Shown here piece after piece: positions 5,164 through 15,951 of a DNA stretch of 32,573 bases. The DNA lies in IMG/VR virus record IMGVR_UViG_3300021371_000064, positions 1 through 32,573 of that record; one strand, written 5' to 3'. The position numbers were made by a program, and so were the translations under genes. The number at the start of each line of letters is the position of its first letter. The stretch's first letter is position 1. Source of the DNA: a virus. The notes under the pieces were generated by a model. The model was given only the letters and a program-made list of their open reading frames with translations, searched no databases and had not been told where the DNA came from.

Positions 5164-5292
5164 CTATTCTCCATATCCGTCAGGACAACAGTCCTCACAA
5201 AAAGTTTTATCTTTATAAAAGTATGCAACCTCTGCACAAGTCTGTTGTCCACAGTCATTACATTCTCTGTCGTAAACATATTCTTGATCCAT
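5164..5292 (-). CDS. 42-aa zinc-ribbon protein, first gene of leftward operon
   Basis: A short ORF with a strong ribosome site (GGAGG, 5299-5303) before ATG 5292. The product has C11-x2-C14 and C32-x2-C35 plus C19 and C36, a compact zinc knuckle, and ends PDGYGE. Being first in the operon it is made early and in quantity. Small zinc-finger proteins of this kind in phages are usually of unknown function. Confidence 0.6.
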   Translation of the reverse strand: MDQEYVYDRECNDCGQQTCAEVAYFYKDKTFCEDCCPDGYGE

Positions 5293-5324
5293 AATAAACC
5301 TCCGTTCCTTTGCTATTGATTACT

Positions 5325-5353
5325 AGGTTATGCTTTATAATCTTTACTGTCAA
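5325..5353 (-). promoter_or_regulatory. Leftward promoter of the recombination operon
   Basis: On the minus strand a perfect -35 TTGACA (5353-5348) is followed after 17 bases by TAACCT (5330-5325). The -10 keeps only the most conserved T, A and final T positions. The leader then carries TAGCAAAGG and the GGAGG site of the 42-aa gene. The -35 overlaps an operator half-site. Confidence 0.6.
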
Positions 5354-5391
5354 CATATTATTTAATTATAATTGACAGATTGTCAACATAT
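5348..5391. promoter_or_regulatory. Operator cluster of the divergent switch
   Basis: TTGACA-GAT-TGTCAA at 5372-5386 is a perfect 6-3-6 palindrome. The 11-base word TGTCAACATAT occurs at 5348-5358 and 5381-5391, exactly 33 bases (about three helix turns) apart. The half-sites overlap the -35 boxes of both divergent promoters, so one bound repressor could close or tune both. The adjacent HTH gene at 5407 is the obvious binder. Confidence 0.6.
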
Positions 5392-5400
5392 AAATATTAT
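5372..5400 (+). promoter_or_regulatory. Rightward promoter of the repressor operon
   Basis: TTGACA (5372-5377), a 17-base spacer and TATTAT (5395-5400) make a near-consensus sigma70 promoter. The expected start of transcription, six or seven bases on, falls at or next to ATG 5407, so the mRNA probably has no leader. Confidence 0.7.
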
Positions 5401-5406
5401 AGCAGT

Positions 5407-5622
5407 ATGAAATTAATTGATTACATAAAGCAGAATAGACTTACACAAAATAAGTTTGCCATCAAATCAGGTTTAACTCGTTCAGCTATTTGTAGGATAT
5501 TAAAGTCTGAAAGATTTCCTACGCCTGATACAATGAACAAGATCGAGCTTGCAACAACAGGTCAAGTAAAAGCAAATGACTTTCTCAAACAAATGCAAGA
5601 GAGAATGATTGATGGCAGATAG
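5407..5622 (+). CDS. Cro/CI-type HTH repressor
   Basis: 71 aa from the first ATG in the frame; a TTG at 5380 lies inside the promoter and is unlikely. KLIDYIKQNRLTQNKFAIKS then GLTRSAICRILKSERFPTP is a classic XRE-type five-helix DNA-binding domain with the turn at about residues 15-36; little else follows, so the size is Cro-like. It has no visible ribosome site, in keeping with a leaderless mRNA such as lambda cI from PRM. It likely binds the TTGACA/TGTCAA sites upstream and controls both directions. The next gene starts within its last bases. Confidence 0.8.
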   Translation: MKLIDYIKQNRLTQNKFAIKSGLTRSAICRILKSERFPTPDTMNKIELATTGQVKANDFLKQMQERMIDGR

Positions 5623-6001
5623 TCGTAACAAGGGTGCATCTTTTGAAAGAAAGATATGCTCTATGATAAAAGATAATCTAAATATAGATGCCAAGAGAAA
5701 CCTTGATCAGTATCAAGCTAAAGGACAAGCTGATATAATTATTCCTGGGTGGTCTATTGAGTGTAAAGCTTACCAAAAAGGAACAACTTATAAGAAAGCG
5801 TGGTTAGAGCAGACAAGAGAAGCTGCAAAGCGTTTGAACTTAACACCTGTGTTGATATACAAGTTTAACAACTGTCCAATAAAGTGTGTTATTCCTATTG
5901 ATGTATTGTCTAGGAACTTTAGTGCTGGACATGATTTAGTTTGTGAGGTTGATATAGAAACATGGTTTTACATAGTGAGGGAGAGAGATGTTATTAGCTG
6001 A
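5612..6001 (+). CDS. PD-(D/E)XK nuclease, Holliday-junction-resolvase-like
   Basis: 129 aa. E12 (SFER), D41 (GQADI) and E50-x-K52 (SIECK) give the E...D...ExK active site of Hjc-type resolvases, with RNLDQYQAKGQADI and PGWSIECK as the usual surroundings. These enzymes cut four-way junctions in replicating or recombining DNA. Start ATG 5612 overlaps the repressor by 11 bases; a TTG at 5609 is also possible. It complements the recombination genes of the leftward operon. A VRR-NUC or restriction-type nuclease is an alternative. Confidence 0.7.
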   Translation: MADSRNKGASFERKICSMIKDNLNIDAKRNLDQYQAKGQADIIIPGWSIECKAYQKGTTYKKAWLEQTREAAKRLNLTPVLIYKFNNCPIKCVIPIDVLSRNFSAGHDLVCEVDIETWFYIVRERDVIS

Positions 6002-6242
6002 TGGGTTTGAAAAAGCATTTATAGGTATAACAATACCTTGTCCAAATGCAGATGAAGTTGCGGTCTATGATAGTACAATATGTTTAGATGTGCTTATGAA
6101 AAGAGATGGCATGACTGAAGAAGAAGCGTTAGAGTATTTTCATTTCAATGTAGTTGGTGCTTATGTTGGTAAATTTACACCTGTCTTTATTACTAGAGCT
6201 ACGATAGAAGAAGCTAAGGAAAGTTGTGATTACTATGGATAA
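5988..6242 (+). CDS. Conserved phage protein of unknown function, 84 aa
   Basis: Starts inside the end of the resolvase-like gene. It contains GMTEEEALEYFHFNVVGAYV, a stretch I recognise from many phage early regions, where it has no assigned function. The N-terminal half (IGITIPCPNADEVAVYDS) reads as strands. It is one of five overlapped genes driven from the promoter at 5372. Confidence 0.65.
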   Translation: MLLADGFEKAFIGITIPCPNADEVAVYDSTICLDVLMKRDGMTEEEALEYFHFNVVGAYVGKFTPVFITRATIEEAKESCDYYG

Positions 6243-6501
6243 GTTTGAATTGTTACAAAAGACGGCTGATGTTGTGAAAGATAGAGGAGATAGTTACGGC
6301 TCCATCTTAGATAATCATACTCGCATTGCTCGTTTATGGTCTGTCCTGTTAAAGATCGAGGTTACACCTGAGCAAGTAGCTCTTTGTATGATAGCAGTCA
6401 AGCAAGCTAGGTTAATGGAAACACCTGACCATGAAGATTCCATACAAGATATTTTAGGCTATGCCCTTACCTACCATGAGTGTATCAATGCCAAAAAATG
6501 A
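6235..6501 (+). CDS. DUF6378 protein
   Basis: 88 aa from ATG 6235; a GTG at 6226 is in frame. The family pattern R-G-x-x-Y-G (RGDSYGS), NHTRIARLWSVLL, then VTPEQVALCMIAVKQARL and DSIQDILGYALTYHE is complete, so I assign DUF6378. All-helical; the fold and charge pattern recall MazG-like nucleotide pyrophosphohydrolases, but that link is inference. Overlaps its upstream neighbour by eight bases. Confidence 0.75.
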   Translation: MDKFELLQKTADVVKDRGDSYGSILDNHTRIARLWSVLLKIEVTPEQVALCMIAVKQARLMETPDHEDSIQDILGYALTYHECINAKK

Positions 6502-6736
6502 TTTCCAAGTATTTAAAAAGCAAGCTCGTCTTTGCAAAACAAAAGAAAGATATATAGAAGTTCTTCTTTCTTTTAAAGTGTTGCCCAATGTGAATGAACC
6601 TATGGCAAGAATGACGTTAGAGGCTTATTGGGTGTACTATACAGAGCTATCTGATAGTGAAAGAAGAATGAGAGATGTTACTCGTTTTGTGCATGGCTAT
6701 GTCAGTAAAAATATCCAAGATAAATTATTTTCTTGA
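6461..6736 (+). CDS. Unknown protein, last gene of rightward early operon
   Basis: Up to 91 aa. Starts are possible at 6461, 6476 and 6488, all inside the previous gene. Mostly helical with many basic residues (KKQARLCKTKERYIEVLLSF, later SERRMRDVTRFVHGYVS). No family recognised. The terminator of this operon is about 190 bases downstream. Confidence 0.5.
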   Translation: MPLPTMSVSMPKNDFQVFKKQARLCKTKERYIEVLLSFKVLPNVNEPMARMTLEAYWVYYTELSDSERRMRDVTRFVHGYVSKNIQDKLFS

Positions 6737-6842: not shown

Positions 6843-6871
6843 AAAATTAAATAAAAATATTAGAGTTTGTA

Positions 6872-6916
6872 ATATATCAATGCACTGATATAGCAGTGCA
6901 TTGATATATCAGTGCA
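6872..6916. repeat. Overlapping alternative hairpins built on TGCACTG/CAGTGCA
   Basis: A perfect 16-base inverted repeat pairs 6872-6887 with 6894-6909 around a six-base loop. A second 12-base inverted repeat pairs 6881-6892 with 6905-6916. They share bases and so exclude each other. The unit GATATA(G/T)CAGTGCAT is also directly repeated at 6887-6901 and 6903-6917, 16 bases apart. This lies just before a terminator. Confidence 0.75.
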
Positions 6917-6922
6917 TATAAT

Positions 6923-6944
6923 AGAGAGAGGCTCTCTTTTTTTT
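6923..6944 (+). terminator. Rho-independent terminator of the rightward early operon
   Basis: AGAGAG (6923-6928) pairs with CTCTCT (6932-6937) around a three-base loop, followed by eight Ts (6937-6944) on the + strand. It ends transcription from the 5372 promoter before it meets the leftward small genes. Confidence 0.7.
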
Positions 6945-7108: not shown

Positions 7109-7288
7109 CTATTTCTCATCTTGATAAATTCTATGCAGTAAAATAGAAACTGTTTTACTAATTGGTCTCTGTCCAGACTCATAATAGTTTATAGCTCTTA
7201 TTGTTACTCCAAGTAATTTTGCTAACTCGTTTTGAGTATATTGTAGTTCTGTTCTGACTTTTTTAAATTGCTCTTTTGTTAGTTGCAT
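7109..7288 (-). CDS. XRE-family HTH regulator, 59 aa
   Basis: A complete ORF with AAGGAGA about eight bases before ATG 7288. The sequence LQYTQNELAKLLGVTIRAI then YYESGQRPISKTVSILLHRI (residues 15-54) is a textbook Cro/C1-type helix-turn-helix, and little else is present. It is a second repressor besides the one at 5407, facing the other way, and ends ten bases before the next gene. It may control the small leftward genes or the late genes. Its leader carries a strong hairpin and the shared AACYTAGCAA word. Confidence 0.75.
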   Translation of the reverse strand: MQLTKEQFKKVRTELQYTQNELAKLLGVTIRAINYYESGQRPISKTVSILLHRIYQDEK

Positions 7289-7319
7289 GGTAATTTCTCC
7301 TTTACCTTTGCTAGGTTAG

Positions 7320-7347
7320 GGCGTTGCATTGTCATGTATGCAACGCC
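7320..7347. other. Hairpin in the leader of the 59-aa HTH gene
   Basis: GGCGTTGCAT (7320-7329) and ATGCAACGCC (7338-7347) are perfect 10-base arms with an eight-base loop. On the + strand a T-rich run follows (7348-7357), as in a terminator, but no + gene lies upstream. On the minus strand it stands between the stop at 7356 and the leader word CTAACCTAGCAAAGG (7319-7305), so a processing or leader structure for the leftward mRNA fits better. Confidence 0.6.
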
Positions 7348-7355
7348 TTTTTATT

Positions 7356-7586
7356 TTAGTTAAATATTTTTTTCCAAGTTTCTTCAATGTCATCATCAAT
7401 GTTGCCATCTTCAATAAACTCTAATTGATCTTTGACGTACTGAATACGGCATTGTTGAACTGTCCAAAAGTCTGTTGTTAATTCTTCAAAGAATAAAACA
7501 GGTTTAAGCTCCTCTTTACTCATAGATAATGCTTGATAGTACAAAACATTGGCTAACGCTTTTTTATATTGTGTTTCTTTTGTCAT
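7356..7586 (-). CDS. 76-aa acidic protein, unknown
   Basis: Starts one base after the stop of the gene before it, with GGGAGG within that gene's end as ribosome site. Helical with a hydrophobic patch (KKALANVLYYQALSMSKEEL) and acidic end (FIEDGNIDDDIEETWKKIF). Starts MTKE like its upstream neighbour. No family recognised. Confidence 0.55.
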   Translation of the reverse strand: MTKETQYKKALANVLYYQALSMSKEELKPVLFFEELTTDFWTVQQCRIQYVKDQLEFIEDGNIDDDIEETWKKIFN

Positions 7587-7587
7587 G

Positions 7588-7740
7588 TTACTTAACCTCC
7601 CATTTCTCTATTTGTTCTAGTAAACTTTGTGAGCATTCAAGCCAACCTTTATCTATATCGTCTAACTCGTATTCGTCAGGCTCTTTTACATCTTCAAGCC
7701 AATCTTTTATTTTCTTTATTGTTTGTTGTTCTTTTGTCAT
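7588..7740 (-). CDS. 50-aa acidic protein, unknown
   Basis: A short ORF starting MTKEQQTIKKIKDWLEDVKE and ending LEQIEKWEVK; mostly helix and acidic (PDEYELDDID). It overlaps nothing but is followed after one base by the 76-aa gene. A purine-rich leader (AGAGAAAGAG) precedes ATG 7740. Support comes from packing, leader and composition; function unknown. Confidence 0.5.
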   Translation of the reverse strand: MTKEQQTIKKIKDWLEDVKEPDEYELDDIDKGWLECSQSLLEQIEKWEVK

Positions 7741-7847
7741 GTCTTACTCTTTCTCTTTTGCTAGTTATGCCATTAGTGGCGTTTTAAGCCTGTTACAGGC
7801 TTGTTAATGTAAAGACTAGTAATAAACTAGCCTTTACAATTCTTTTG
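7741..7847 (-). promoter_or_regulatory. Structured leader with three hairpins
   Basis: In the leftward mRNA sense it holds a 12-base stem (7837-7826 with 7820-7809, one G-U pair, five-base loop), a seven-base stem AAGCCTG/CAGGCTT (7786-7802), a four-base stem GCCA/TGGC (7769-7780), then the shared word ATAACTAGCAAAAG (7768-7755) and the ribosome site. No gene is seen in it on either strand. Confidence 0.55.
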
Positions 7848-7949
7848 TTAGCTAAATACTATTAATAAAAATATTGCGAAGCCAAACAACATAACTAAAA
7901 AAGACATTTCTATTATGCTAGTGGCTATTAGTTTAAATATGTTTTTCAT
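7848..7949 (-). CDS. 33-aa single-pass membrane peptide
   Basis: MKNIFKLIATSIIEMSFLVM continues into LFGFAIFLLIVFS: a basic start and one long hydrophobic helix ending at the C terminus. It begins inside the end of the 56-aa gene (17-base overlap), with GAGG about 10 bases upstream. Tiny membrane peptides of phages can act as holin or antiholin, or in superinfection exclusion; none can be singled out here. Confidence 0.45.
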   Translation of the reverse strand: MKNIFKLIATSIIEMSFLVMLFGFAIFLLIVFS

Positions 7950-8103
7950 TTTTAAGAACCTCTAATATTTCTTTTGCTCTGTTTGGTGTTAGCTCCATTT
8001 GATTTGTTGCATTGCCGTTGCCGTCAAATATCTTAATGCTAAAACCATATTTAGTTTTTTGTAGTTTCTTAAATTGACTTATTAAATACTCTTTACTTGT
8101 CAT
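7933..8103 (-). CDS. 56-aa protein, unknown
   Basis: A short ORF starting MTSKEYLISQFKKLQKTKYG, followed by a strand pair (FSIKIFDGNGNATNQMEL) and a helix (PNRAKEILEVLKN). It starts six bases after the stop of the 82-aa gene. The alpha-beta-beta-alpha order with sensible hydrophobic spacing supports a folded protein. No function is assigned. Confidence 0.5.
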   Translation of the reverse strand: MTSKEYLISQFKKLQKTKYGFSIKIFDGNGNATNQMELTPNRAKEILEVLKNEKHI

Positions 8104-8109
8104 GTTTAA

Positions 8110-8358
8110 TTATCCTTGTATAAATATAATCTTTTCATCTAAAAACTTTTTACTTGCTCCAAGTTCTTTTGATGCTTTTGTTGTAATGATTTCTTTAACT
8201 AGTCTTTCATGTATGGTTCTACATTCTTCAATTAGCTTTTCAGCTTGCTCAATGCTAATACCATAATCAGAAGAAAACCTTTCATATGTAAGATAGTTAT
8301 TAAACCAATCTAAAAAGATTGATTGCTTTTCTTTGTCTGTTTTATCGTTGTAGTTCAT
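8110..8358 (-). CDS. 82-aa helical protein, unknown
   Basis: First gene of a three-gene unit behind a large hairpin leader. Nearly all helix: KQSIFLDWFNNYLTYERFSS, then DYGISIEQAEKLIEECRTIH, which has the look of a helix-turn-helix but no clear family match. AAAGG lies upstream of ATG 8358. Function unknown. Confidence 0.5.
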   Translation of the reverse strand: MNYNDKTDKEKQSIFLDWFNNYLTYERFSSDYGISIEQAEKLIEECRTIHERLVKEIITTKASKELGASKKFLDEKIIFIQG

Positions 8359-8397
8359 GTTATAGCCTTTCTTTGTTGCTAGGTTGTGAGCTTGTAG

Positions 8398-8434
8398 CTC
8401 TTGAAAGACTGGAACAAATCCAGTCTAACAAGAG
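8398..8434. other. Long hairpin with symmetric internal loop between leftward genes
   Basis: CTCTTG (8398-8403) pairs with CAAGAG (8429-8434) and AGACTGGA (8406-8413) pairs with TCCAGTCT (8419-8426), separated by a 2x2 AA/AA internal loop and closed by a five-base loop. No T run follows on either strand, so it is not a standard terminator. A smaller hairpin GAGCT/AGCTC (8388-8400) overlaps its base. The layout resembles RNase III processing sites between T7 early genes. Confidence 0.6.
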
Positions 8435-8443
8435 TAACAAGGC

Positions 8444-8833
8444 TTATATATTATTTGCAGTGTTGTAACCTATTACAAAGCCAAACATCTCTTGGCTAGA
8501 GTTAAAGCGTTTTAAGTCTGTGCCATATTGACAGTATCCAACATTTATTGAATACTTGTTAAAACAAATACTTTCTTTTTGTATGCTTTTAATATCAATA
8601 TGACCAAAGCCATGTTTCATAACGTACTTAGTAAATTTATGACATTGATTGGCGTAATAATATTTATTAGCACATGATAACCTTATATTTATATTTTGTT
8701 TGTTTAGTTTAAAGTTTAAGTCATTTCTTTCTTGTATCATTTTGGAACTATCAAATTTGCTCCAATCTCTGTTGTTGTCTAAATAATTATCAATATAGTT
8801 TATTCTTTCTTTTATTTTTGTCATGTTGTTCAT
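8444..8833 (-). CDS. 129-aa protein, unknown, first leftward gene of the small-gene block
   Basis: Starts possible at 8833 (AAAGG seven bases upstream) and 8824. The N-terminal half is helical and polar, the C-terminal half has a strand-rich part ending SSQEMFGFVIGYNTANN, a phrase I have seen at the ends of unknown phage early proteins. AT-rich codons (Asn, Lys, Ile) dominate. It has its own promoter at 8898-8870. Confidence 0.55.
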   Translation of the reverse strand: MNNMTKIKERINYIDNYLDNNRDWSKFDSSKMIQERNDLNFKLNKQNINIRLSCANKYYYANQCHKFTKYVMKHGFGHIDIKSIQKESICFNKYSINVGYCQYGTDLKRFNSSQEMFGFVIGYNTANNI

Positions 8834-8869
8834 AGCTTTACCTTTCTTGCTAAGTTAAAATATAATACT

Positions 8870-8898
8870 AAGTTAATGAACTGTGTTCTATATGTCAA
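8870..8898 (-). promoter_or_regulatory. Leftward promoter of the small-gene block
   Basis: TTGACA (8898-8893), 17 bases, then TAACTT (8875-8870) on the minus strand: the same -35, spacing and near-identical -10 as the leftward promoter at 5353. A small dyad GAAC-TGT-GTTC (8878-8888) lies in the spacer. The leader goes on to TTAACTTAGCAAGAAAGG (8858-8841). Confidence 0.55.
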
Positions 8899-9285: not shown

Positions 9286-9675
9286 ATGATAAGCAAAGCA
9301 AAACAAGACCACATCATATCATCCATAACAGACGGACACAGCCTTGTAAAAGCATGTGCAGATGCAAAGGTTAGTCGTGCTACGTTATATCGCCATATGA
9401 GCAAGAATACAGAGTTAGATAGCAATGTTAAGACTGCACAGAGACAGGCTGCTGAGAAAGCACTTGAGGAGCTAGAGGATATGTATGGTGATGCGTTGCA
9501 TGGTCGAAAGAACTATGACCCTAATTTATTAAGAGACTATGGGCATCATGTAAGATGGAAGGTGCAGAAAGTATTACCAGACAGGTTTGGAGAGCCTAAG
9601 AACAGAACAGGCGTTGAGATCAGTGATGGTTCATTGAAGATAGTTTGGGAGACTGGTTCAGAGGATGCAAGTTAA
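9286..9675 (+). CDS. terS: Terminase small subunit
   Basis: 129 aa. The N-terminal 45 residues form a helix-turn-helix (SLVKACADAKVSRATLYRHM) used by small terminases to bind the packaging site. A helical middle part (QAAEKALEELEDMYGDAL) would form the oligomer core, and VRWKVQKVLPDRFGEP is a phrase typical of the family. It overlaps the large subunit by 11 bases. No clear ribosome site precedes ATG 9286, so the start is less certain than the gene. Confidence 0.8.
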   Translation: MISKAKQDHIISSITDGHSLVKACADAKVSRATLYRHMSKNTELDSNVKTAQRQAAEKALEELEDMYGDALHGRKNYDPNLLRDYGHHVRWKVQKVLPDRFGEPKNRTGVEISDGSLKIVWETGSEDAS

Positions 9676-10951
9676 GATACCCTATAAGCCTAGAGACTTA
9701 CAGGCTGAAATGCATAAGAACTTGAAAAGATGGAATGTGCTTGTGATGCACAGACGATTTGGTAAGACTGTATTTGCTGTCAATCATATGATTAAACATG
9801 TGTTAACTTGTCCTCTGCCAAGACCAAGAGTTGCGTTAGTGGCTCCTACGTTTACGCAAGCTAAGAGGATTAGTTGGGATTATGTTAAGTATTATGCTGG
9901 GGTTATACCAGGTGTTACGTTTAACGAGACTGAGCTAAGGGCAGACTTTCCTAATAATGGTAGGATAATGTTATTGTCAGGTGAGAACCCTGATGCGTTA
10001 AGAGGTATATACTTGGATTTGTGTGTATTTGATGAATATGGAATGCAGAATCCTAGGGTATGGGGGGAGGTTGTAAGACCAGCACTATCTGACAGAGAGG
10101 GTAGTGCCATCTTTTTAGGTACACCAGCAGGTCATAATCATTTTTTTGATATACTACAACAGGCTAAAGAGCAGGATGAAGAAGGTTCTGACCAATGGTA
10201 CTGGAAGATTGCTAAGGCTAGTGAGACTAAGCTAGTGAAAGATGCAGAGTTAGAAGCTGCACAGGTGCAGATGACACCAGAGCAATATGAGCAGGAGTAT
10301 GAGTGTTCATTTACGGCTGCTATTATCGGTGCGTACTATGGTAAGTTACTGGCGGCTTTAGATGATGAGGGTAAGATTACCAGGGTTCCTTACGATCCTG
10401 CATTGCCAGTACATACGGCTTGGGATTTAGGTATTAATGATAGTACGGCTATTTGGTTTGCACAGGTTTATAGAGGGGGAGCTGTTAATGTTATTGACTA
10501 TTATGAGAATAGTGGCGTTGGCTTGGACCATTATGCTGAAGTCCTTAGACAAAAAGATTATCACTGGGGAGATCATCTTGCTCCACATGATATTGAAGTT
10601 CGAGAACTGGGTAGTGGGAAATCGAGATTAGAGACTGCGTTTAGTTTAGGTATACGTTTTAAGGTAATACCTAAGATGAAGATTGCTGATGGTATTAATG
10701 CTGCTAGGATGCTTATACCTAAATGTTACTTTGATAGAGATAAATGTGCAGAAGGTCTTGAGATGTTAAGACAATACAGACAGGAATGGGATGACCGAAA
10801 GAGGATGTTTAGGGATCAGCCAAGACATGACTTTACAAGTCACAGTGCAGATGCGTTTAGATATTTAGCTATTGGGTTGGAGAATCGTACTAAGATGACA
10901 AAAGCACCACAGACTGTGGCAGTCAATGAGTACAATCCCTTTTCAATGTGA
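9665..10951 (+). CDS. terL: Terminase large subunit
   Basis: 428 aa. ATPase half: a Walker A variant HRRFGKT (29-35), Walker B VFDE (121-124) and a coupling motif in FLGTPAG (150-156). Nuclease half: D254 (AWDLGINDST), acidic residues near 278-281, and D396 in HSADAFRYLA, the RNase H-like metal site that cuts DNA. It pumps DNA into the prohead with the small subunit and portal. In T7 the terminase genes lie at the far end of the map; here they open the late block. Its last codon and stop (ATGTGA) contain the GTG start of the next gene. Confidence 0.93.
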   Translation: MQVKIPYKPRDLQAEMHKNLKRWNVLVMHRRFGKTVFAVNHMIKHVLTCPLPRPRVALVAPTFTQAKRISWDYVKYYAGVIPGVTFNETELRADFPNNGRIMLLSGENPDALRGIYLDLCVFDEYGMQNPRVWGEVVRPALSDREGSAIFLGTPAGHNHFFDILQQAKEQDEEGSDQWYWKIAKASETKLVKDAELEAAQVQMTPEQYEQEYECSFTAAIIGAYYGKLLAALDDEGKITRVPYDPALPVHTAWDLGINDSTAIWFAQVYRGGAVNVIDYYENSGVGLDHYAEVLRQKDYHWGDHLAPHDIEVRELGSGKSRLETAFSLGIRFKVIPKMKIADGINAARMLIPKCYFDRDKCAEGLEMLRQYRQEWDDRKRMFRDQPRHDFTSHSADAFRYLAIGLENRTKMTKAPQTVAVNEYNPFSM

Positions 10952-15087: not shown

Positions 15088-15951
15088 ATGTCAACATCAG
15101 TAACTACAGCATTTGTCCAACAGTATTCTGCTAACGTACAGATGCTGTCTCAACAGATGGGAAGCCGTCTAAGAGACACAGTCCGTGTGGAGAATATTAC
15201 AGGGAAAAATGCTTTTTTCGATCAGGTAGGTGTTGCTACAGCTCAGTTGCGTAGCAGTAGACATGCCGACACTCCACAGATAGACACACCTCACGCAAGA
15301 CGTAGAGTGAGTTTAGCTGACTATGAATACGCCGATTTAATTGATGACCAAGATAAAGTCAGAATGTTAATTGATCCAACATCAAGTTATGCACAAGCAG
15401 CTGCTGCTGCAATGGGTAGAGCTATGGATGATGTTATCATTTCTGCTGCACTTGGAACAGCTTTTACAGGCGAAACAGGTTCAACATCTACAGCGTTTGC
15501 AGCTGGTAATCAGATTGCAAATGGTAGTGCAGATATGTCTGTTGCTAAGTTAATTCAAGCTAAAAAGATTTTAGATTTAGCTGACGTTGACCCATCAATA
15601 CCAAGATATATTGCAGTTGGTCCTAATCAGATTGAAGCTCTATTAAATACAACATCAGTAACAAGTTCTGACTTTAATACAGTTAAGGCTCTTGTACAGG
15701 GTGATGTAGATACATTCATGGGTTTCAAGTTTATTGTAACAAACAGACTATCGCTTGCATCAAACATCCGTTCATGTTTCGCATGGGCAGAGGATGGGAT
15801 TGCTCTAGGCATAGGTAAAGACGTATCAGCTAGAATAGACGAGAGAGCAGACAAAGGTTATGCTACGCAGGTTTATTATTGCATGAGCGTTGGAGCCACA
15901 CGCATGGAAGAATCCAAGATTGTGCAAATCGATTGTGATGAATCAGCGTAA
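15088..15951 (+). CDS. Major capsid protein
   Basis: 287 aa, preceded by the strong site TAGGAGAC. A helical start (FVQQYSANVQMLSQQMGSRL) leads to a loop with DTPQIDTPHARRRVSLADYE, followed by the DxID-K-type region and an Ala-rich helix (SYAQAAAAAMGRAMDDVIIS), as in HK97-fold coat proteins of podoviruses with no protease. Position after the scaffold fixes the call. It is shorter than T7 gp10 (about 344). Hundreds of copies would make the shell. Confidence 0.85.
   Translation: MSTSVTTAFVQQYSANVQMLSQQMGSRLRDTVRVENITGKNAFFDQVGVATAQLRSSRHADTPQIDTPHARRRVSLADYEYADLIDDQDKVRMLIDPTSSYAQAAAAAMGRAMDDVIISAALGTAFTGETGSTSTAFAAGNQIANGSADMSVAKLIQAKKILDLADVDPSIPRYIAVGPNQIEALLNTTSVTSSDFNTVKALVQGDVDTFMGFKFIVTNRLSLASNIRSCFAWAEDGIALGIGKDVSARIDERADKGYATQVYYCMSVGATRMEESKIVQIDCDESA

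Follow-up and report, generated by a model that had tools for sequence, protein, structure and literature searches.

The leftward early genes of an uncultured HTVC010P-like marine podovirus are divided into units by intergenic leaders, in which hairpins are followed by a shared start word (CTAGCAA) and a ribosome site, as a first-pass annotation of this DNA had claimed from its letters. The leftward RNA is the folded molecule, the word is linked to the hairpins and strongly biased to the sense strand, the leaders keep fixed slots and a fixed order while genes are exchanged behind them, and no leftward terminator tract accompanies them. With moderate confidence, we propose that each leader acts as an insulated translation-start element and mRNA divider and thereby offers a fixed socket for exchangeable early genes.

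Genome setting and leader features

The window, i.e. the whole stretch of DNA analysed, is a viral contig of 32,573 bases (IMGVR_UViG_3300021371_000064). Its terminase large subunit (TerL; 9665-10951, plus strand) is 52% identical to those of the cultured Pelagibacter phages HTVC034P and HTVC010P, and PHROG matches to head-tail adaptor, major head and tail proteins assign the window to the HTVC010P-like podoviruses. Megablast of the window against phage records gave no DNA-level match, and no close TerL was found when bacterial species genomes were searched for a host. The leftward early block extends from 8833 to 6952 and is met by a convergent rightward block (5380-6736), in which an HTH gene and a PDDEXK nuclease are encoded.

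The evidence throughout is comparative. We compared the window with 80 viral contigs carrying a related TerL, and word counts span 81 sequences. Leader classes A, B and C were called by sequence patterns, and many of the contigs are fragments. In the cultured Pelagibacter phage Lederberg, which has the same synteny, the early genes are tightly packed and no such leaders are present. The features of the window, in leftward order, are as follows:

8878-8898, minus: putative early leftward promoter, from sequence (TTGACA at 8898-8893)
8888-8878, minus: putative 11-bp palindromic operator GAACACAGTTC, overlapping this promoter; a palindrome of different sequence is present in relatives
8847-8856, minus: start word AACTTAGCAA of the promoter-proximal leader, without hairpin, 13 nt before the ATG at 8833; same position in relatives
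8391-8441, minus: leader A, long hairpin (RNA MFE; covariation in 28 relatives)
8388-8400, minus: leader A, small hairpin GAGCT-ACA-AGCTC (98% of cells paired, nearly invariant)
8385-8376, minus: start word AACCTAGCAA of leader A, with ribosome site AAAGAAAGG (8359-8385), before the ATG at 8358
8110-8358, minus: first gene behind leader A, 82 aa; unrelated families at the same place in relatives
7808-7838, minus: leader B, hairpin 1, 12 bp (100% of cells paired, two pairs with double-sided change)
7786-7802, minus: leader B, hairpin 2, AAGCCTG-TAA-CAGGCTT (RNA MFE; other stem types there in relatives)
7769-7780, minus: leader B, hairpin 3, GCCA-CTAA-TGGC (pair 76-85 is C-G in 11 relatives and G-C in 7)
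7758-7767, minus: start word TAACTAGCAA of leader B, before the ATG at 7740
7588-7740, minus: first gene behind leader B, 50 aa; several families in relatives
7320-7347, minus: leader C, hairpin GGCGTTGCAT-ACATGACA-ATGCAACGCC (covariation in relatives)
7308-7317, minus: start word AACCTAGCAA of leader C, before the ATG at 7288
7109-7288, minus: HTH_3 (Cro-like) gene locked to leader C (Pfam HTH_3, E 1.6e-10)
5293-5330, minus: leader of the second leftward operon, TAACCTAG and ATAGCAAAGG apart, without hairpin (sequence and relatives)

The start word is linked to the hairpins

The four minus-strand word sites described at first reading are all present, each followed by a purine-rich Shine-Dalgarno sequence and an ATG (8833, 8358, 7740 and 7288). 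The leader at 5292 likewise carries TAACCTAG and ATAGCAAAGG split apart, as described, and the split is kept in relatives at the second leftward promoter. The genome-wide motif search proposed at the time, for AACYTAGCAA over the 32.6 kb, returns four exact sites, all on the minus strand, three of them within 1.6 kb of the region and one stray at 15542. With two mismatches allowed, the window alone yields 99 sites compared with 97.6 expected, which is chance level; the statistical weight therefore rests on the relatives.

Across the 81 sequences, TAGCAA stands ahead of an ATG open reading frame 185 times on the minus (leftward) strand and 10 times on the plus strand, and in an unbiased count of 7-mers upstream of starts CTAGCAA or TAGCAAA ranks top or near the top in most loci. 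When hairpins were scanned first, the word was found within 60 nt downstream of 90 of the 221 minus-strand hairpins and of 1 of the 223 plus-strand hairpins. A word-free, stem-only covariance model of leader A gave 28 strong matches (39-72 bits, the E-values of this custom model being rough). Each of them is followed by the word at a distance of 2-5 nt, once in the form ATAGCAA and once as CTAGCAT; some of these loci had been fetched by a word-containing pattern and about half by TerL alone. From the hairpin-first scan and the word-free matches, we conclude that the link between word and hairpin is independent of selection.

The word also occurs without a hairpin at some internal starts and in the genes right behind the two leftward promoters (8856-8847; 5330-5293). 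A search for word plus ribosome site across 257 Gb of species genomes gave 32 matches, which are isolated and lie in unrelated taxa; we read them as chance. Four word-bearing viral contigs that encode no related proteins turned out to belong to another phage, which matches the word by chance.

The leftward RNA is the folded molecule

Hairpins had been noted just upstream of the word in three leaders, and they fold at 8441-8388, 7838-7769 and 7347-7320 with z-scores of -5.1, -5.9 and -4.5 compared with dinucleotide shuffles. The first-pass annotation had made its reading depend on conservation of the stems and the word in related phages; both are conserved, and the stems carry compensatory changes. 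The relatives share ancestry, hence covariation counts do not represent independent events, and the diversity of the stems together with the slid controls forms the main argument.

The long hairpin of leader A consists of a base of CTTGT:ACAAG pairs (8441-8437/8395-8391), a lower 2x2 internal loop UA/CU (8436-8435/8397-8396) and a 15-position stem (8434-8420/8412-8398) that, in the window phage, encloses a second 2x2 loop (UU/UU). The single 2x2 loop reported earlier is thus one of two, and the lower one is kept throughout leader A of the relatives, where it is never closed (UA/CU in 22, AU/CU in 4, GG/CU in 1, one gapped). Over 28 distinct sequences, 94.5% of cells are paired and 11 of the 19 pairs show double-sided changes, with a covariation score of 0.501 compared with 0.175 for shuffled alignments (0/500) and at most 0.098 for slid versions. 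Two A stems may differ at 10 of 15 positions in one arm; own arms then form 13-14 pairs and swapped arms 7-8. The small hairpin, which in one relative (L011) carries the double change GAGCG/CGCTC, shares bases with the long one, and the two folds are therefore mutually exclusive. Further downstream, ACAAC, CTAGCAA, AAAGAAAGG and the ATG follow the hairpins in this order. The leader A fold is limited to lineage I, and other lineages have different hairpins in the slot.

For leader B, the covariation analysis covers hairpins 1 and 3, the stem types of hairpin 2 being misaligned among relatives. Here, 97.9% of cells are paired and three pairs show double-sided changes, but leader B does not exceed its shuffles in the two scores based on numbers of pairs and of pair types. 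In leader C, double-sided changes occur in 3 of 8 pairs, and the score is 0.327 compared with 0.085 for shuffled alignments.

Wobble pairs identify the strand that folds. G-U cells outnumber A-C cells by 56 to 5 over the stems of A and B1; the ratio is 28 to 3 among distinct A arm pairs and 20 to 0 in hairpin 1 of leader B. Given this excess of G-U, it is the leftward RNA that folds; neither a DNA palindrome nor the opposite transcript would yield such a bias. The distance from the upstream stop codon to the hairpin is mostly 1-3 nt for A and 6-13 nt for B and C, so that each leader fills the whole intergenic gap. Rfam covariance models gave no match at E <= 5 between 6900 and 9000.

Two details of the hairpins are recorded here as side observations. 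The upstream stop codon lies 3 nt from leader A, where a terminating ribosome would cover the base of the long hairpin; the exclusive folds of this leader could form a translation-dependent switch. In the loop of hairpin C (7340-7329), almost every lineage I relative keeps an unpaired CATGA despite changes in the stem; this sequence may mark a binding site.

The hairpins had been likened to the sites at which RNase III processes T7 early mRNA. By analogy, host RNase III might cut at the hairpins and break the early transcript into several mRNAs whose ends are protected and which begin close to the word, a possibility that we judge rather improbable. Leader A, with a stem of 19-20 bp whose 2x2 loop and length stay constant despite sequence change, comes close to the T7 type; moreover, the folded strand is the sense strand, and the leaders are intergenic in an early operon, i.e. 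in polycistronic mRNA. However, B1 with a stem of 12-13 bp and C with one of 8-10 bp are small compared with a standard site, and cleavage alone leaves the shared word unexplained. The likeness in form holds for leader A (15 bp, 2x2 loop and 4-5 bp) but not for the short stems of B and C, and RNase III cleavage appears plausible at leader A only.

Sister lineages carry other words

Contigs with a TerL 84-92% identical (L061, L065, L073, L075, L077, L079 and more) are without CTAGCAA; they have AACAACA before starts and hairpins at equivalent places. Six other contigs (L174, L179, L180, L186, L191 and L205) have TAGCAAAC followed by AGAAAGGATC before starts. Since all lineages retain a recognisable leader B core (CTTAAA-CG-CCA-TAA), the word appears, by inspection, to differ between lineages at homologous leaders. 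In lineage I, word I follows 89 of 180 hairpins and word II none; in lineage II, word II follows 4 of 18 hairpins and word I none.

A trans-acting factor, either a phage or host RNA-binding protein or a small RNA, might read the word beside the hairpin and control the translation of all early units together. Such a factor would fit one word per genome at all starts with another in each sister lineage, the match between the word and the lineage of its hairpin, and the two mutually exclusive folds of leader A. We found no candidate reader, however, and the word might just as well be an unstructured standby site, common to the leaders and spread by recombination; we consider this explanation unlikely.

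Leader order is fixed while genes are exchanged

In all 31 genomes with at least two leaders, the order is A (sometimes doubled), B, C, whereas randomisation preserves this order in 9.5 genomes on average and in 19 of 31 at most. The genes behind the leaders fall into 19 unrelated families for 40 A leaders and into 12 families for 25 B leaders, while all 26 C leaders precede a single family, the HTH gene. Several gene families are found behind different leaders or behind a hairpin-free word, which shows that for A and B the leader is not coupled to the gene behind it.

The first-pass annotation had also offered a family of mobile leader-gene cassettes. Of this proposal, the exchange of genes behind A and B stands and the mobility does not: the order is fixed (31/31) and the leaders do not travel with the genes, which argues for sockets rather than mobile cassettes. 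It is very unlikely that the leaders are mainly recombination anchors or cassettes with no RNA function. Gene exchange behind A and B and the duplication of leader A in four relatives (L014, L041, L064 and L087) agree with such a role, but the kept order speaks against it, and compensatory changes that keep the loop, as well as the G-U preference, are unexpected from homology alone or from DNA palindrome correction.

Oriented DNA sites bound by a phage repressor to stop transcription, similar to stoperators, would match a word that is asymmetric, intergenic, near starts and in a single orientation, with an HTH gene in the same operon; yet they do not account for the RNA covariation and wobble bias, and CTAGCAA is retained in two relatives (L163 and L166) whose last hairpin precedes another HTH family. 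As the promoter operators diverge widely among relatives while the word is constant, we regard such sites as highly improbable. Transcription terminators or attenuators between the units can be given hardly any weight, since, apart from the stability of the intergenic hairpins and a terminator score of the window's C hairpin on the opposite (rightward) strand, no leftward terminator-like site and no U tract after A, B or C was found at the leaders, and the C hairpins of L064 and L163 have no run of A from which a rightward U tract could arise.

Proposed function of the leaders

We infer from the sequences that the leaders insulate translation and separate mRNAs, as cis-acting RNA elements of the leftward early polycistronic mRNA. 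An internal leader comprises one to three hairpins, an unpaired linker of 3-6 nt, CTAGCAA and a purine-rich ribosome site, and spans the gap from stop to start. The hairpins would set the unit apart from the upstream mRNA and leave word and ribosome site unpaired, and the first gene of each unit would have its own ribosome entry, whatever stands upstream. Promoter-proximal genes would be expected to do without a hairpin because there is no upstream RNA to separate. If a leader works with any gene, the sockets A and B could have stayed in order while unrelated genes were swapped, and the common leader sequence may also provide homology for this exchange.

Between word and ATG, bases are predicted to be unpaired with a probability of 0.64 when the real hairpin is present and of 0.58 when the upstream sequence is shuffled (Wilcoxon P 4e-13); the average is 0.60 for all leaders compared with 0.53 for other starts. 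This gain in accessibility is modest and, like the hairpin-free internal starts and the restriction of the leader A fold to lineage I, counts against insulation. Stems of constant length (15 bp in A, 12 bp in B1) and a single word for every start of a genome exceed what insulation needs, a surplus that hints at a specific reader and leaves room for RNase III cleavage at A. A wider reading, which we offer only tentatively, is a phage-encoded RNA socket system of ordered leaders with conserved structure, whose fixed-length stems and lineage-specific word would be read by a dedicated factor. Any gene placed behind a leader would then join a common post-transcriptional regulon, and sister lineages would have switched to another word at every slot at once.

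No part of a phage genome changes faster than the early region, where most of the small genes for takeover and anti-defence are found. In the phages described here, it is the gene that changes while the expression element is kept, which bears on how a new gene gets expressed at once. The socket idea is directly testable because the covariation evidence is strong, and word plus hairpin would serve as a simple tag for exchangeable early genes in abundant uncultured marine phages.

Comparison with known systems

We file the leaders under repeated start-linked intergenic elements in phage early regions, for which the closest described systems are the SAS/ESAS of cluster K mycobacteriophages and the PeSLs of T4-like phages. 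Start-associated sequences (SAS) and extended SAS (ESAS) were described in cluster K mycobacteriophages (Pope 2011, PMC3203893) and also occur in Microbacterium cluster EF (PMC7302621). An SAS is a short conserved sequence that takes the position of the ribosome site in some of the non-structural genes and has a single orientation, with inverted repeats immediately upstream in about half of the cases and different gene families behind; the ESAS are 17-bp inverted repeats with a consensus, for which the authors considered RNA pairing not supported (PMC3203893). The leaders share the short start-linked word, the single orientation, the upstream repeats and the varied gene families, but they differ in sequence, belong to unrelated phages and form three distinct types in fixed order; unlike ESAS, their stems covary and have no sequence consensus. 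The SAS consensus GGGATAGGAGCCC is not found at the starts, where the word is CTAGCAA with AGAAAGG.

The promoter early stem-loops (PeSLs) of T4-like phages reportedly stand between early gene modules, are tied to module shuffling and combine an early promoter with a terminator. Our leaders also stand between exchangeable gene modules, but contain no promoter above chance (A and C have weak promoter-like matches of 9/12 nearby, B has none) and no leftward Rho-independent terminator. The early RNase III sites of T7 are irregular intergenic hairpins that divide the early operon. The leaders share their intergenic position in early polycistronic mRNA, and leader A is comparable in length and internal loop; only A forms an irregular duplex of about two turns that includes an internal loop, B and C being shorter. 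Unlike the T7 sites, the leaders have a common start word after each hairpin and gene exchange behind fixed sites. The stoperators of mycobacteriophage L5, as mentioned in PMC4351075, are DNA sites consisting of oriented asymmetric repeats near starts. The word shares this arrangement, but here the folded RNA is the conserved feature, and the word does not co-vary with the operator.

Palindromes flanking the early block

The palindrome at the early leftward promoter occupies the same site in nine relatives (L011, L020, L028, L035, L040, L069, L163, L166 and L199) and is longer than 11 bp in some. Close relatives carry very different versions of it (GAACATTGTTC, AACCATTGGTT, AGAAATAATTTCT, GCAAGTATTGC and others) within a promoter that is otherwise kept, as if repressor specificity or immunity diversifies. 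The second leftward promoter region (5340-5400) has two TTGACA boxes with TTGACA..TGTCAA operator-like repeats, which adjoin the divergent HTH gene at 5380-5622 (plus strand); this operator is nearly constant in relatives. A nested palindrome array (TGCACTGATATATCAATGCACTG...) and a strong rightward terminator AGAGAGAGGCTCTCTTTTTTTT lie between the convergent blocks (6865-6937). This array is possibly an origin or a two-way terminator, and L061, L065 and L077 have different palindrome arrays at the matching site.
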